Source: Dethiobacter alkaliphilus (GTDB lineage: Bacteria; Bacillota; Dethiobacteria; DTU022; UBA8154). From it: DNA of 64,000 bases. Below the pieces are notes generated by a model. It made no database searches and was not told the origin of the DNA. It saw only the letters and a list, made by a program, of their open reading frames with translations. This document shows positions 3,828 to 55,622 of this stretch, in pieces. Each line of letters starts with the position of its first letter. Positions within the stretch are counted from its first letter, which is position 1. The translations under genes and the position numbers were made by a program. The stretch covers positions 248,001-312,000 of the forward strand of contig JAENYV010000002.1 in assembly GCA_016841605.1 (NCBI GenBank), read 5' to 3'.

Positions 3828-4928
3828 TTATGAGAGCATTAAACGGTAAATATTCTCTGCAGCCCTGGGAAAAGCAATCTCTTTACTGTTCTTTCTTATT
3901 TTCTCCATTTTCCCAGGGTTATTCAACAATGTGTAGACCTGCTCCAGCAATATTGTCCCGTTTAAATCTTTTTCTTCAATTACCATGGCAGCCCCTTTGC
4001 CTAAAAGCTCACGGGCATTAATCAACTGATGGTTGTGAACCACATTGGGAGAAGGAATAATGATAGCCGGAAGGCCCAAAGCAGTAACCTCCGCCAGTGT
4101 TGTCGCCCCCGCCCGGGTAATAATAAGATCTGCCGCTGCCATGCTGAGGGGCATCTCGTCTTGAAAAGGTTTCACCTGCAGGCGGCCTTCGTACCTGGCT
4201 AAGATACCTTTTGCCCTTAAGTGTGCCCTAATTTCCTCATAATAAATTGCCCCTGTGATATATAAAACTTGAATTCTTTTATTATCTGCCGAACCAATTA
4301 AAAAATCAACCATACTCTTGTTTAATTTTAAAGCGCCCCTGCTCCCTCCAACGGCCATGACAAGGGGCAAATCAACATCCATTTCCAGCATCTTCCTGGC
4401 TGTGGACTTTTCAAACAGACCTACTTCGGAAGCTCGCGGGTTTCCCGTAATTACTAAATTTGATCGTTTTAAAAAATAACGGATTGATCCTTCAAAGGAA
4501 AGACAAACGCGATAGGCCAGGGGGGCAAGGAACCGGTTGGTCATACCGGGGATCACATTCTGTTCGTGCAAAATAACCTTTTTCCCCTTGATAATGGAGG
4601 CAATCACTATCGGTGCAGCAGCATACCCTCCCGTTCCAACGACAAAATCAGGCTTATAGCTTCCAACAATCTGCAAAGCTTTTGTAACCGAGCTTCCCAA
4701 CAGAGAAAAAGAGCGAAGCAACTCCGGGGTAAGCCTGCGTGGGAAGCCCTTAACAGACAGGGTCTTCATAGCAAAGCCGGCCTGGGGAACAATTTGCTCC
4801 TCCAGCCCTCCTTTTGCTCCGATAAATAAAATTTCTGTGCTTGGATTTATTCTCCGTATATATCTGCCCAAAGCTAAAGCCGGGTAAATATGTCCACCCG
4901 TTCCGCCGCCCGTAAGAATTACCCGCAA
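3828..4928 (-). CDS. murG: UDP-GlcNAc:lipid I transferase MurG
   Basis: Peripheral membrane GT-B glycosyltransferase that makes lipid II from lipid I. The N-terminal loop GGGTGGHIYPA, the HEQN motif (residues about 125-128) and the C-terminal donor site (GGSRGA and TRAGATTLAE) are all present. The TTG at 4928 gives the usual N-terminus (LRVILTGGGTGGH) and has GGGAGG six bases upstream. An ATG at 4988 overlaps the ftsW stop and would add 20 residues containing a KIPEL-KIPEL duplication, but has no ribosome site. About 366 residues, family length. Confidence 0.93.
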   Translation of the reverse strand: MRVILTGGGTGGHIYPALALGRYIRRINPSTEILFIGAKGGLEEQIVPQAGFAMKTLSVKGFPRRLTPELLRSFSLLGSSVTKALQIVGSYKPDFVVGTGGYAAAPIVIASIIKGKKVILHEQNVIPGMTNRFLAPLAYRVCLSFEGSIRYFLKRSNLVITGNPRASEVGLFEKSTARKMLEMDVDLPLVMAVGGSRGALKLNKSMVDFLIGSADNKRIQVLYITGAIYYEEIRAHLRAKGILARYEGRLQVKPFQDEMPLSMAAADLIITRAGATTLAEVTALGLPAIIIPSPNVVHNHQLINARELLGKGAAMVIEEKDLNGTILLEQVYTLLNNPGKMEKIRKNSKEIAFPRAAENIYRLMLS

Positions 4929-17167: not shown

Positions 17168-17371
17168 AAAAAAAATTACCCCACCATACCGTTCTGCCTG
17201 CTTGTTTTGAACTGCTCTCCCTAGGTGGGTGCCCTCTTACATGCTTTACAGGTCCCCATTTAAGAGGGCATCTATGCTACACGTAAAGGCGGGCTCCCTT
17301 TTCATAAGTGTTAGCTCAAAACTGTTGAGGCTGCACGCATACAGCAGGGTAATTTCCTGAAGAATCTTCGC
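17168..17371 (-). ncRNA. ssrS: 6S RNA
   Basis: About 200 nt that bind the housekeeping RNA polymerase as a promoter mimic. The 5' AAATTACCC (near 17,354) pairs with 3' GGGTAATTT, closing the molecule, and a T run ends it. A second stem GTTTTGA / TCAAAAC encloses a large central bubble (GCTAACACTTATGAAAAGGG on one side, GGGAGAGCAGT on the other), and a 10-bp apical hairpin TGCCCTCTTA / TAAGAGGGCA closes the top. This stem-bubble-stem layout, size, own promoter and position next to aspS all fit 6S RNA of Bacillota. No covariance search could be run. Confidence 0.8.
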
Positions 17372-19259: not shown

Positions 19260-19529
19260 CCGCGTCTCCCCAGCCTTCCGAACTTTATTTCAGGCAGGTT
19301 TTGCTCAAGTTATGCCAAGAGGGCAACCTTTTTCCTGCTTTAATGATTTTAGCCAATGTGGGACCCCTTGTCAACTTTAACCGGCTGTATCTTTTGATAA
19401 GGGTTTAGCTTCGCGAAAAATAGTAATTAGCGATGTCATGGAGATAGTTTGGCGAGCGCTCGGGCAAAGCGCCGGACCGGTGCTCCGGTTTCCTGCCGGC
19501 AAGTCCTGCAGCTCTTCTTAGCCCTTCGC
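19260..19529. other. Gene-free spacer between DUF89 gene and aspS, with short GC-rich inverted repeats
   Basis: About 270 bp. At 19,450-19,515 there is a dense set of short palindromes (GAGCGCTC, CCGGA/TCCGG, GCCGG/CCGGC), resembling in style the larger elements at 34.7-35.4 kb. No ORF with a ribosome site and no T-box antiterminator were seen. Confidence 0.5.
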
Positions 19530-20393
19530 TTAATTTTTCGCTGCAGTGTTACCGTTAAATTTAAAAACATAATCATTTAATGCGACACCAAGCTTTTGGG
19601 CTATCACAGGACATTTAGCCTTCAGCAAAAAGAATATCCCCCTGTCCTGATCCGAAAGTGTTTCATGATTTCCGAGTCCTTTGCTGATAACAATATCCGC
19701 GTTGTGAAATATTTCTGTAAATTCCGTGCTACACTCTTCAAGAACGGCACCGGGTACATTGCAGCCGGTGGAAACGATTTTTGTGCAATTATCCAGTCCC
19801 GAAGCGTAAGCATCTGAAAGAGTTACATCATTGATGATCGGTTCACTTCTGACTGCGTAAATAATTTCAAATTCCTGCAGGTGTTCCGCCAGTATTCTGT
19901 CAAATACTGTTTCCCCCGCATTGTCACCGATAATCAAAATTCTTTTTGCTGCCTTCAAACACTTTTCAAATATTTCCATATCGCAAATGGAAAATTCCCT
20001 TTCCAGTTCTTCTTTGACACAGTTCTCCATATTGACATTATTGTATAAAGCGGAATCAATAATATTTCCTGTACCTGCTGTTTTCAATGCCCAGTAAAGA
20101 CTGTTTCCTTTTTTCTCAAGAAATCTCTTAAGCTGCGGATATAAATCCAGTGCTGCCTTTATATCCCTCTCCTTAATATGCATATAAGGATCTGCAACTC
20201 CTGTATGCTTCTTCACGGCCTGATGCAATACCCTGCACAAATCCGGAGAGCACCTGTATTTTTTATATTCAGAAATTATTTTCAAAGAATCATCCATGAT
20301 CTTTTCATGCACTTCATGCTCTTCAGCTGCCATCCGTGAAGCTTCAACCACCTGTCTCAACATACAGAGGAGACAATCAGGAAATATTTTCAT
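19530..20393 (-). CDS. DUF89 (ARMT1-like) damage-control phosphatase family protein
   Basis: Family members are metal-dependent phosphatases thought to remove damaged phosphometabolites. 287 residues. The N-terminal CLLC pair (residues 8-11) is the mark of the prokaryotic subfamily, and the metal-site motifs GDNAGETVFD and SKGLGNHETL are intact. ATG at 20393 with GAGGAAG upstream. The substrate cannot be told from sequence. It lies 48 bp after dtd on the same strand, but nothing in its neighbours points to its substrate. Confidence 0.85.
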   Translation of the reverse strand: MKIFPDCLLCMLRQVVEASRMAAEEHEVHEKIMDDSLKIISEYKKYRCSPDLCRVLHQAVKKHTGVADPYMHIKERDIKAALDLYPQLKRFLEKKGNSLYWALKTAGTGNIIDSALYNNVNMENCVKEELEREFSICDMEIFEKCLKAAKRILIIGDNAGETVFDRILAEHLQEFEIIYAVRSEPIINDVTLSDAYASGLDNCTKIVSTGCNVPGAVLEECSTEFTEIFHNADIVISKGLGNHETLSDQDRGIFFLLKAKCPVIAQKLGVALNDYVFKFNGNTAAKN

Positions 20394-34739: not shown

Positions 34740-35021
34740 AAAGCTCTTCCGGTTCGGTTCCGGCCGTTCGTTTTTCGGGCTTCAGCCTTTGTGACGGAAG
34801 CCCACGGCGCAGCAGAACTCTGAGGCTTCGCTCCATGGCACCAGTGCAAAGCTCTTCCGGCTCAGCTCCGGCTTCCAGCAGCCTTCCTTGCAAAAACTCC
34901 CATCCTGGTCGTTGCAAGCTGCAGGCATCCTGCCTGCAGGGCCGCTTTCCAGCCGTCCCTTCGCTCGGAGCTTTTCGCCACTGTTGCCAAGGCAGCTCTG
35001 CCAACAGTGTCCTGCTGCGCC
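34740..35021. repeat. Nested inverted-repeat element A
   Basis: GGCGCAGCAG (34,806-34,815) is matched by CTGCTGCGCC (35,012-35,021). Inside are further pairs: GGCAcCAGTG (34,838-34,847) with CACTGtTGCC (34,979-34,988), AAAGCTC (34,848-34,854) with GAGCTTT (from about 34,968), and a perfect 9-bp arm palindrome at 34,919-34,939. Just outside, GGGCTTC/GAAGCCC forms a hairpin (34,777-34,803), and the 13-mer AAAGCTCTTCCGG is repeated directly at 34,740 and 34,848. ORFs across it have no ribosome sites and look like artefacts of GC-rich repeats. Confidence 0.75.
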
Positions 35022-35148
35022 TTACTGTAATCTATCATAACGGATTAAAGAAAATTCTTAAAAGCTGGTGGCAGTTGCTCCCTACTATTTTCCTTATACC
35101 GAAAATTATCGTATACCAAAACAATTTTAAACCAGAGTTTACGAAAGG

Positions 35149-35429
35149 CCTGCGGGGGAAGCGGCTGGACAAGGTGCGACTCTTTTAGCGCCGCTCAAGG
35201 TCCCGGCTATGCTGAGCCCGTACTCTTGCCCTGCAGACAGGACGTCTGCAGCCGGCATGCTGCCACGGAGGGCAGCTTTGCCGGGAAGGCAAGGGCAGGG
35301 CGAAGGCAGAGCCGTTGGACCTGCAGGCGCTAAAATCGGAGCCACCGGTGCAGCCCTTTTCACGAAGGCACCATCCAAATAGCTTCCAACCCAACGAAAT
35401 ATACTCAAGGTGGGTGACGCCCCCGCAGG
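35149..35429. repeat. Nested inverted-repeat element B (possible structured RNA or miniature mobile element)
   Basis: Six levels of complementary arms enclose one another: CCTGCGGGGG (35,149) with CCCCCGCAGG (35,420); GGCTG (35,163) with CAGCC (35,351); TTTTAGCGCC (35,183) with GGCGCTAAAA (35,326); GGTCC (35,199) with GGACC (35,317); CGGCTaTGC (35,204) with GCAgAGCCG (35,306); CCCTGC with GCAGGG. The centre holds two hairpins, CTGCAGAC/GTCTGCAG (35,231-35,251) and CCGGCA...TGCCGG with inner GCTGCC/GGCAGC (35,252-35,284). It lies between dapL (stop at 35,446) and asd. Element A is about 130 bp away with the same build. Confidence 0.78.
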
Positions 35430-35445
35430 GGGAAGCGCCCGTCAA

Positions 35446-36621
35446 CTACTGAAAAGACACGGCTTCTTTTATCCTCGTCATCGCTTCCGTCAGCCTTTCC
35501 TCTTTTACCGTAAGCGCAATACGGAAATATCCTTCCCCATACTCCCCGAAACCCCGGCCGGGAGTAATAACAACTCCCGTCTTCTCCAGTATATGAGCAA
35601 CAAATGATTGCGATGTATACCCCTTGGGAACAGGTGCCCAGATATAAAATGTGGCCTGTGGAGACCGTGCAGGCCATCCTGCCTCTTTAAGAGCTTTTAC
35701 GACTACGTCTCTGCGCCCCTGATAAACTTTTCTCAAACCGTTTAAGAAAGGTACCATCTCCGGATTATTAAGAGCTTCCACCCCCGTATATTGGATTGCT
35801 TTAAAAAGCCCGGAATCCGTGTTGGTTTTGAACCGGTACAGCGCTTCCAGCGCCTCGCTGTTCCCCACAGCATATCCGATCCGCCATCCGGTCATATTAA
35901 ACGTTTTGGAAAGGGAGCCGAATTCGATCGCGACATCTTTCCCTCCCGGCGCCTCCAGAAAACTCGGCGGTTGATACCCGTCGAAAGCTATCTCGCTATA
36001 GGCGGCATCATGGCAGACAAGAATGTTATATTTCCCGGCGAAACTTGCGACCTGTTCAAAATATTCGCTTGTTGCCGAAGCACCGGTGGGGTTATTCGGA
36101 TAATTTAAAAACAGTAACTTTGTCTTGCGGGCAACTTCTTCAGGGATAACTGATAAATCCGGCAAATAATTATTTTCTTCTAATAGCGGCATAATATAAG
36201 AAGTCCCGCCGGCAAAAAGGGTACCAATACCATAAACAGGATAGCCCGGATCAGGAACAAGGTTTACATCCCCGGGATTGGTGTAGCAAAAAGAAATATG
36301 TGCGATCCCTTCCTTGGAACCGATTAGAGGGACAACCTCCGTGTCGGGATCCAGCTCAACACCATGCCTTTTCCCGTAATACGCCGCTACAGCTTCCCGA
36401 AATTCCCGTAAGCCGTCATCAGGAGGATAATTATGGTTTTCCGGCCTTGCCGCCTCCTCTTGCATCCGCCTGACGATATAATCAGGAGTCGGCAAGTCGG
36501 GATCTCCAATCCCCAGTTTAATAACATCGACCCCCATTTTTTGTGCTTCCCGTACTTTTTTGTCAATTTCCGCAAAAAGATACCTTGGTAAAGCTTGTAT
36601 ACGATCTGCGCTATTTTTCAT
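35446..36621 (-). CDS. dapL: LL-diaminopimelate aminotransferase
   Basis: PLP enzyme that converts tetrahydrodipicolinate directly to LL-DAP, bypassing the succinylase or acetylase routes. Fold-type I aminotransferase of 391 residues: [33 protein letters not shown] (PLP/Asn), [13 protein letters not shown], the PLP lysine in [14 protein letters not shown], and [17 protein letters not shown] with the substrate arginine. The closest family type is the DapL of Clostridia, but distinguishing it from related aspartate-type aminotransferases rests partly on its place in the lysA-dapF-dapL operon. ATG at 36621 after GGAGAGAGG. Confidence 0.9.
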
Positions 36622-38893: not shown

Positions 38894-38960
38894 CATGTAA
38901 AAAGTCAAACCTCTAGAACCCTTGGTGAGATAGCGCTCCACCTGGCTAAAAGGGTTTTTT

Positions 38961-39114
38961 CACCAGGTGACAGTCAACCAGTTATTCACTGGCCAACCAG
39001 CTTTTAGTCCTCCGGGAGAAGCTAAAAACTTCGGCGGTGGCCCCTTTCAACACGGTTCATTCTTCCCGGTTCTTCCCCATGTCTACTAATTTCCAACCGC
39101 ACCTCTACCTCATC
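38961..39114 (-). promoter_or_regulatory. Lysine riboswitch (L box)
   Basis: Minus-strand landmarks of the L-box aptamer appear in order: AGGTAGAGGTGCG (5' end), AGTAGACATGGGG, AAAGGGG, CCACCGCCGAAG, GGACTAAAAGCTGG and finally GACTGTCACCTGG, which pairs back to the 5' strand. Size (about 154 nt) is typical. It controls lysA-dapF-dapL. Confidence 0.93.
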
Positions 39115-39156
39115 AACTCGGTCAAAGAGATGAGGTATTATTTACTTTTGTGTGGT

Positions 39157-40493: not shown

Positions 40494-40526
40494 GTTTCTC
40501 CCTCCCCTATCGTCCCCATGGCATCG

Positions 40527-41282
40527 CTAGTTGCTATTTTTTGCCGAAGTGTTATAATTCTCGAAGTTTACATCTTTAACTTTCTTACAAAAATATTCCA
40601 TAATAAATCCGTCTTGTAAAAGGCTGTTTTTTTCAACCTTAAATCCTGCTCTAATAAGCATACCTTCAATAATCCAACTAAATGTACTGAACTCATCTCT
40701 GATATGTGTTTCTACTTCCGCTTTTAATTGTTCACCTGCTGCTGTTTCATAGGTGGAAATAAATTGATTAATTTTTGAACAATATTCCAAGGGGTCAAAA
40801 TGAAAAATTACATCAAATAAATAGAGCACTCCACCTATTTTCAGCATTTGATTCATCTTTAGAAGGGCAATCTGTTTCCAAAAGTCAGGCAAATGATGAA
40901 GTGCCGACTTCGTTAAAACGATATCTACCTGTTCCTCTTGATGTTCATAACTTAAAAATCCGGAATTAATAAATTCTATATTTGTAATATTTTTTTCCTC
41001 TGCTTTCTCAATTGCCTGCTCAATCATTACCTCTGAGACATCAACAGCATATATTTTTTTGAAATGTTTTGATGCATAAATGGAGGTAGCACCTGTTCCA
41101 CATGCCAGGTCGATTAATGTAAGGTCTTCCGTATTATCCAATGCTAAATTTTGCAAAAAGTCGGCAACTTCCTTTTCATAATTTCTAAACTTTTGGTGCT
41201 GTTGGTCGTAAATTTGTGCTTGTTTTAGATCGGAGTAATCAATTCCACAGTGTTTATATTCATTATAAACCCAGTTTTCCAT
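40527..41282 (-). CDS. Class I SAM-dependent methyltransferase
   Basis: 251 residues. SAM motif I LIDLACGTGATSIYA, acidic loop IYAVDVSEVMIEQA, motif after strand 4 VDIVLTKSALHHLPDF and motif III GGVLYLFDVIF. The substrate is unknown. ATG at 41282 (MENWVYNEY) is preferred; the frame stays open to 41423 but passes through a strong hairpin. The gene is clearly AT-rich with A/T-ending codons and, with the preceding flavoprotein, may have been acquired later than its surroundings. Confidence 0.82.
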   Translation of the reverse strand: MENWVYNEYKHCGIDYSDLKQAQIYDQQHQKFRNYEKEVADFLQNLALDNTEDLTLIDLACGTGATSIYASKHFKKIYAVDVSEVMIEQAIEKAEEKNITNIEFINSGFLSYEHQEEQVDIVLTKSALHHLPDFWKQIALLKMNQMLKIGGVLYLFDVIFHFDPLEYCSKINQFISTYETAAGEQLKAEVETHIRDEFSTFSWIIEGMLIRAGFKVEKNSLLQDGFIMEYFCKKVKDVNFENYNTSAKNSN

Positions 41283-41329
41283 CTTAACACTGCCCTTTGT
41301 ATGCAAAGTTTTTAAGCCGGGGCTGTTAG

Positions 41330-41352
41330 CACTACAGCGAAAAACTGTAGTG
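41330..41352. terminator. Hairpin between flxA and the methyltransferase gene
   Basis: CACTACAG/CTGTAGTG, 8-bp stem with seven-base A-rich loop. It lies upstream of the methyltransferase start and downstream of the GC-rich terminator of the redox operon. No T run follows, so it may be an mRNA-stabilising or regulatory hairpin. Confidence 0.45.
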
Positions 41353-55526: not shown

Positions 55527-55622
55527 TGGCGGGAGTAGATGGGAATCGAACCCACCGTGGACCTCGTCAGCCCACCATCGGATTTGAAGTCCGAGGACAG
55601 CACCAGGCCGCCAACTACTCCC
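55527..55622 (-). tRNA. selC: tRNA-Sec (anticodon UCA)
   Basis: 96 nt including an encoded 3' GCCA. The acceptor stem is 8 bp (GGGAGTAG at 55,615-55,622 with CTACTCCC at 55,531-55,538), the length typical for tRNA-Sec. The anticodon loop CTTCAAA carries TCA at 55,585-55,587; a long variable arm and the T-loop GGTTCGATTCC follow. Reads UGA as selenocysteine with SelA and SelB encoded about 2-5 kb downstream. Confidence 0.96.

Follow-up and report, generated by a model that had tools for sequence, protein, structure and literature searches.

The window analysed here is a 64,000-nt stretch of the Dethiobacter alkaliphilus genome (GCA_016841605.1, contig JAENYV010000002.1, positions 248,001 to 312,000); coordinates given without a contig or locus name refer to this window. 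Its − strand carries lysA, dapF and dapL, followed by asd and lysC. Three RNAs on the same strand score above the Rfam gathering score: a 6S RNA (17174-17353), a lysine riboswitch upstream of lysA (38923-39115), and a selenocysteine tRNA (55531-55622). The subject of this work lies between dapL and asd, where six nested inverted repeats ending in two central hairpins had been proposed at 35149-35429. The arms and the two hairpins are present, but the outermost 10-bp pair is not part of the fold: positions 35149-35158 and 35420-35429 match exactly, yet the match is unused in the minimum-energy fold. The right half of this pair (35420-35429) belongs to a separate local palindrome, CCCCCGCAGGGGG, and was judged to be outside the element, being beyond the repeat boundary and unpaired with 35149-35158; the match of the element to its other copies stops at ~35365-35372. 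We refer to the re-bounded element, a long imperfect hairpin at 35140-35374 (+), as “element A”.

The structure at this position exceeds that of shuffled sequence. The 35130-35450 strand folds at −159.4 kcal/mol, compared to a mean of −125.3 kcal/mol for shuffled sequence (z −5.0), with 0 of 100 shuffles as good, and the re-bounded element is more extreme (z −7.7; 0 of 200 shuffles as good). The original prediction had named a lack of both excess folding and other copies as grounds for abandoning it; folding is in excess, and searches of the same genome and its relatives found many copies (see below). The palindrome at 35417-35447 is ~87% identical over 31 nt to the repeat of a CRISPR array on contig C30 of the same genome. 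We rejected this kinship as coincidental, because what the two have in common is a GC palindrome, and the repeat differs elsewhere. The array itself (G000:C30:149422-155265) is long, with ~90 repeats of GTCGCTCCCCATGCGGGGGCGTGGATTGAAAC at a ~67-base period.

To describe the conserved part of the element, we use a covariance model, “R1”, built with a hand-drawn structure from 28 copies in eight genomes, with no member of RF01731 (see below) in the training set. In the R1 consensus, two adjacent hairpins with GGA loops cap a long stem. In element A, the R1 core of 129 positions spans 35197-35325 (+) and scores 115 bits (E 5.6e-33), this copy being one of those used in training. Its first apical hairpin (35231-35251, +) reads CTGCAGAC-AGGAC-GTCTGCAG, with GGA at 35240-35242; the second (35252-35284, +) has the loop ACGGAG, with GGA at 35267-35269. 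A sister element that did not feature in the original prediction, “element B”, lies at 34806-35021 on the − strand, divergent to element A. It has perfect 10-bp outer arms (GGCGCAGCAG/CTGCTGCGCC) and a folding z of −6.9, and its R1 core (34846-34974, −) scores 94.9 bits (E 9.6e-27) although this copy was absent from the training set. The first apical hairpin of element B is CTGCAGGCAGGATGCCTGCAG (34919-34939, −), and the second (34887-34918, −) has a tandem G-A beside the loop AGGAT. A 118-base AT-rich spacer (35022-35139) separates the two elements. It contains a weak promoter-like site directed into element B (35061-35034, −), a consensus match only, at 9 of 12 positions; there are three sites of that quality in 901 bases, compared to 0.5 expected.

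Elements A and B belong to a dispersed repeat family. A blast search of the same genome with the consensus of the better copies gave 42 matches at E<=1e-3, 14 of them nearly full length with 88-97% identity; the R1 model finds 25 copies, and the total is ~40 full or partial copies. Element A is an old outlier, 79% identical to the family consensus core; as a query it matches ~20 diverged copies over 35140-35365. The better copies share inverted ends (left, (T)TARCACTACAGCGAAAAATT; right, AATTACTATTTTTCGCTGTAGTGYTAA), and they are flanked by an apparent 3-bp NTA duplication: most readable copies have the same triplet (TTA, CTA or ATA) at either end, with one clear mismatch. Derivatives that retain the ends but have lost the apex are numerous, and truncated and solo-end forms are common. 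The window holds several such forms: a shortened copy with its end repeats kept and its apex deleted (19413-19551, −; weak R1 match at 19498-19617, 21.5 bits), a right-end remnant (40511-40554, +; 84% over 44 nt), and a terminal-repeat remnant beside a short inverted copy of itself (41326-41347, +). Several copies, here and in G008, are bordered or interrupted by a second short dispersed palindrome of REP-type appearance, GGGGACACACCTCTTnCAGAGGAATGTCCCC (L061, L070, L078, L085, L263, L265, L266).

The suggestion that the element is a miniature non-autonomous mobile element thus fits the family, with its ~40 copies, inverted ends and apparent target duplication, but not directly the pair in the window, as elements A and B have no recognisable terminal repeats. 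From the inverted ends and the apparent NTA duplication, we infer that the better copies would have spread as miniature inverted-repeat transposable elements (MITEs), moved in trans by a transposase. No recurrent transposase-like ORF was recognised near 30 end-repeat loci, and none of the listed ORFs around a cluster of R1 copies in G017 is a transposase, the neighbours there being, by eye, ordinary housekeeping genes. Searches of phages, plasmids and viral contigs gave no match to the repeat. Like other bacterial MITEs, the repeat is short and non-coding, and it has inverted ends, an apparent target duplication and many copies in its own genome; unlike them, its R1 core is a conserved RNA-type structure common to genomes in which the element ends are unrelated.

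The conservation of this core indicates how the structure is maintained. Among the 28 aligned sequences, 27 of 43 base pairs have changed on both sides, compared to 15.1 in shuffled alignments and 4-10 when the structure is slid along the alignment. Across 103 distinct matches from 12 genomes, paired positions hold 200 G-U pairs and 60 A-C mismatches, a ratio of 3.33, counting sequences rather than independent events in a model-fitted alignment. When these columns were re-paired at random, the ratio averaged 1.21 and did not exceed 2.62 in any of 200 trials. Counting within lineages gives a more conservative 74:35. The excess of G-U over A-C holds in 10 of the 12 genomes, with one tie and one genome that has neither. 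Within D. alkaliphilus by itself it is weak (30:18 by cells, 13:11 by events), as expected of decaying copies. Unpaired positions are also conserved: GGA is invariant in both loops of all 12 genome consensuses, as are most of a GAAGC internal loop and the AG/GA opposing it. The internal loop can be read as three standard pairs flanked by two tandem G-A steps. Further G-A pairs occur at columns 71/84 (G-A in 15 of 28 copies) and 72/83 (A-G in 14 of 28), and also in element B. The strong covariation and the strand-specific excess of G-U over A-C point to selection on a structured single strand, the one that carries GGA, most likely as RNA.

The main competing explanation is that the repeat is purely selfish foldback DNA. 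Its hairpin would then serve only in transposition or as single-stranded DNA, its apparent covariation would be a by-product of hairpin-templated correction as the DNA replicates, and neither an RNA nor a protein ligand would take part. The many truncated and solo-end derivatives would be expected of such an element, as would its random orientation to genes, its loss from the asd locus of a relative, the nesting of elements within related elements in G021, and its persistence in genomes without CsrA, all of which are described below. By contrast, templated correction or a double-stranded cruciform predicts equal numbers of G-U pairs and A-C mismatches, and the observed 200:60 rules out quasi-palindrome correction as the sole cause of the covariation. 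Nor does this explanation account for unpaired GGA and GAAGC sequences that are invariant or nearly so in 12 genomes, or for sheared G-A pairs (15/28 and 14/28) that alternate with Watson-Crick pairs. We consider it unlikely, while noting that one fixed strand may act as single-stranded DNA. That the family is a dispersed mobile repeat under constraint at the level of RNA is, in our judgment, very probable.

R1 copies occur in 22 of 98 genomes of the class, and Desulfofustis glycolicus has 29 R1 matches. Among named genomes, exact core motifs were found in D. glycolicus and in two metagenome bins, one labelled Dethiobacter, whose sequences match G003 and G012. Element ends differ by host lineage. 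In G021 elements are commonly compound, with one R1 element nested in a second of this family; at L092, L099, L110, L111 and L248-L262, elements lie within the apex of another superfamily element, and the compound is the consensus of 16 aligned copies. Divergent pairs a few hundred bases apart, as in the window, recur at L145, L189, L263, L265, L266 and G070:C238, and G010 has tandem direct pairs.

The history of the asd locus can be followed in relatives. The congener G001 has the same divergent pair in the same place and orientation, between lysA and asd. The congener G002 has lost the interior, with short end matches remaining as a scar before asd, and has kept asd-lysC. In 17 further family members with an asd match, no R1 match was found there within the fetched flanks; overall, the pair is absent at asd in 18 of the 20 genomes with an asd match. 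Since the pair is kept in G001, has lost its interior in G002, and is absent beside asd in the 17 others, this comparison indicates that it is ancestral in the genus, dispensable, and older than the species. Near lysA, G001 also carries a strongly palindromic ~90-nt repeat (L166:3435-3528 and 4112-4203), which plant microRNA models match by chance.

Copies have no fixed position relative to genes. Among 59 copies whose neighbours could be trusted, orientations relative to these genes are ++ 19, −− 21, +− 12 and −+ 7; orientation is random, and the sites are intergenic. Together with the retention of the asd-dapL pair in one congener and its loss in another, this argues against a local role, which we regard as very improbable. 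One such role would be a regulatory RNA of the lysine pathway, i.e., a leader, attenuator or processing site for asd-lysC or dapL. The conserved place and orientation of the pair before asd in G001 agree with this idea, as do the co-directionality of element B with asd and the weak promoter-like site before element B. However, other copies have no fixed orientation to their neighbours, the pair is missing in those 18 of 20 genomes, G002 keeps asd-lysC without it, and the known switch of the pathway, the lysine riboswitch, is upstream of lysA. We find such an RNA highly improbable; we rejected cis-regulation of asd/lysC on the absence of the pair at asd in those genomes, its loss in G002 and the lack of orientation bias, and the proposed processing signal between dapL and asd-lysC finds no support, given the 59 resolved copies without such a bias and the intact asd-lysC of G002. 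A transcription terminator or 3′ stabiliser for dapL is scarcely credible: the element is directly 3′ of the dapL stop codon and folds on either strand, but there is no T-run terminator there on the − strand, and copies lie on either side of genes, and in either orientation to them, at similar rates. The proposal of a structured RNA within the lysA-dapF-dapL transcript is supported as regards structure, given the covariation and the 200:60 count, but not as regards the transcript. Element A has GGA on the strand that does not encode lysA-dapF-dapL-asd, and its RNA would thus not be the operon's own transcript.

The R1 structure resembles the TwoAYGGAY RNA (Rfam RF01731, clan CL00106), described by Weinberg in 2010 and judged to be probably an RNA and not cis-regulatory (PMC2864571). 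It was later predicted to be a CsrA ligand from motif matches, with its tandem G-A pairs pointed out (PMC4333381); the Rfam entry RF01731 gives its role as unknown. The RF01731 model matches the better copies of our family weakly (25 bits, below the gathering score of 43), and copies from D. glycolicus at 42.0 bits, just below gathering (E 4e-4 to 0.0017). Conversely, R1 matches 9 of 12 fetched RF01731-bearing loci, 8 of them at E<1e-5 and the best at 9.7e-16. Because each model detects members of the other, the two look like one superfamily, and from these reciprocal matches we consider common membership likely. In both, a stem encloses two neighbouring hairpins with AYGGAY/GGA loops; both have tandem G-A in a stem, and neither is cis-regulatory. 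Both are multi-copy: of 299 genomes from the phylum, 47 have RF01731 matches, many of them at least 7-9 each, with scoring limited to 9 candidates. The R1 family differs in its long conserved lower stem with the GAAGC internal loop, its occurrence in another class, and its location inside a MITE. The window copies have no RF01731 match, the Rfam search of the window copy giving only a chance snoRNA match.

The possible ligand is suggested by the loops. The R1 family has a feature of CsrA-type RNAs, a pair of GGA hairpin-loop sites, and apical hairpin 1 is similar to ACARGGAUGU, the CsrA selection consensus. CsrA is encoded in 44 of 47 RF01731-positive genomes, compared to 169 of 252 others (Fisher p 8e-5). 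Counted by family, CsrA is present in 23 of 23 RF01731-positive families (p ~0.002, for which the overall number of families is an estimate). For R1 within the class, the association is borderline: 13 of 22 R1-positive genomes have CsrA, compared to 27 of 76 R1-negative genomes (p 0.054). CsrA was not found in 9 of the 22 R1-positive genomes, including G003 (at least 35 copies), G015 (19 copies) and G028 (96% complete), and genome incompleteness alone would account for ~2 of these absences. G003 and G015 keep intact GGA loops; either CsrA was lost recently in these genomes, or another factor constrains the loops. D. alkaliphilus itself has three csrA genes. Like the CsrA-sequestering sRNAs of the CsrB/RsmZ type, the repeat presents GGA in hairpin loops; unlike them, it has two sites rather than many, is dispersed and repetitive, and has no sRNA gene signals. 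CsrA-sequestering RNAs known so far are mainly from Gammaproteobacteria (PMC4333381).

The explanation we favour, with moderate confidence, is that elements A and B are an old pair of mobile-repeat copies carrying a structured RNA of the TwoAYGGAY superfamily, probably a CsrA-type ligand. When a copy is transcribed, an RNA-binding protein that reads GGA, most likely a CsrA dimer, would hold its two GGA hairpins, ~27-31 nt apart, and the repeat copies would serve as dispersed CsrA ligands or decoys. Binding of CsrA to the repeat's RNA is a plausible but tentative proposal. If it holds, the Bacillota and Desulfobacterota would gain CsrA-sequestering RNAs, with a transposon as their source; otherwise, RNA-level selection on this mobile repeat still calls for an explanation. 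A broader version, in which a mobile family across the Bacillota and into the Desulfobacterota carries a two-site CsrA ligand, such that transposon copy number sets the capacity to titrate CsrA, is more doubtful. If true, it would represent a transposon-borne counterpart of CsrB in phyla without an established CsrA-sequestering RNA. This analysis identifies TwoAYGGAY and its diverged relative as dispersed repeats with mobile-element features and RNA-level constraint, linked to CsrA-encoding genomes.

Other dispersed repeats invite comparison. The bcr1 repeats of Bacillus cereus are dispersed and have a predicted, conserved long RNA stem-loop, as does the R1 repeat. A two-GGA apex is not known in bcr1; it comes from another branch of bacteria, and we set it beside the R1 repeat by description only. 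The bcr1 repeats are treated in PMC6542083 and PMC2267715. REPINs are short paired REP hairpins moved in trans (PMC3116915). They share with the R1 repeat the character of dispersed palindromic mobile DNA; the R1 repeat differs in forming a long hairpin of 200-340 bp whose loops are conserved, and in that no partner transposase was found near the 30 end-repeat loci.

One copy in the D. alkaliphilus genome (L300:1587-1808; G000:C22, ~146.1-146.3 kb) lies exactly between a fliW-like ORF and csrA, antisense to csrA. With ~40 copies in the genome, this position may be due to chance.
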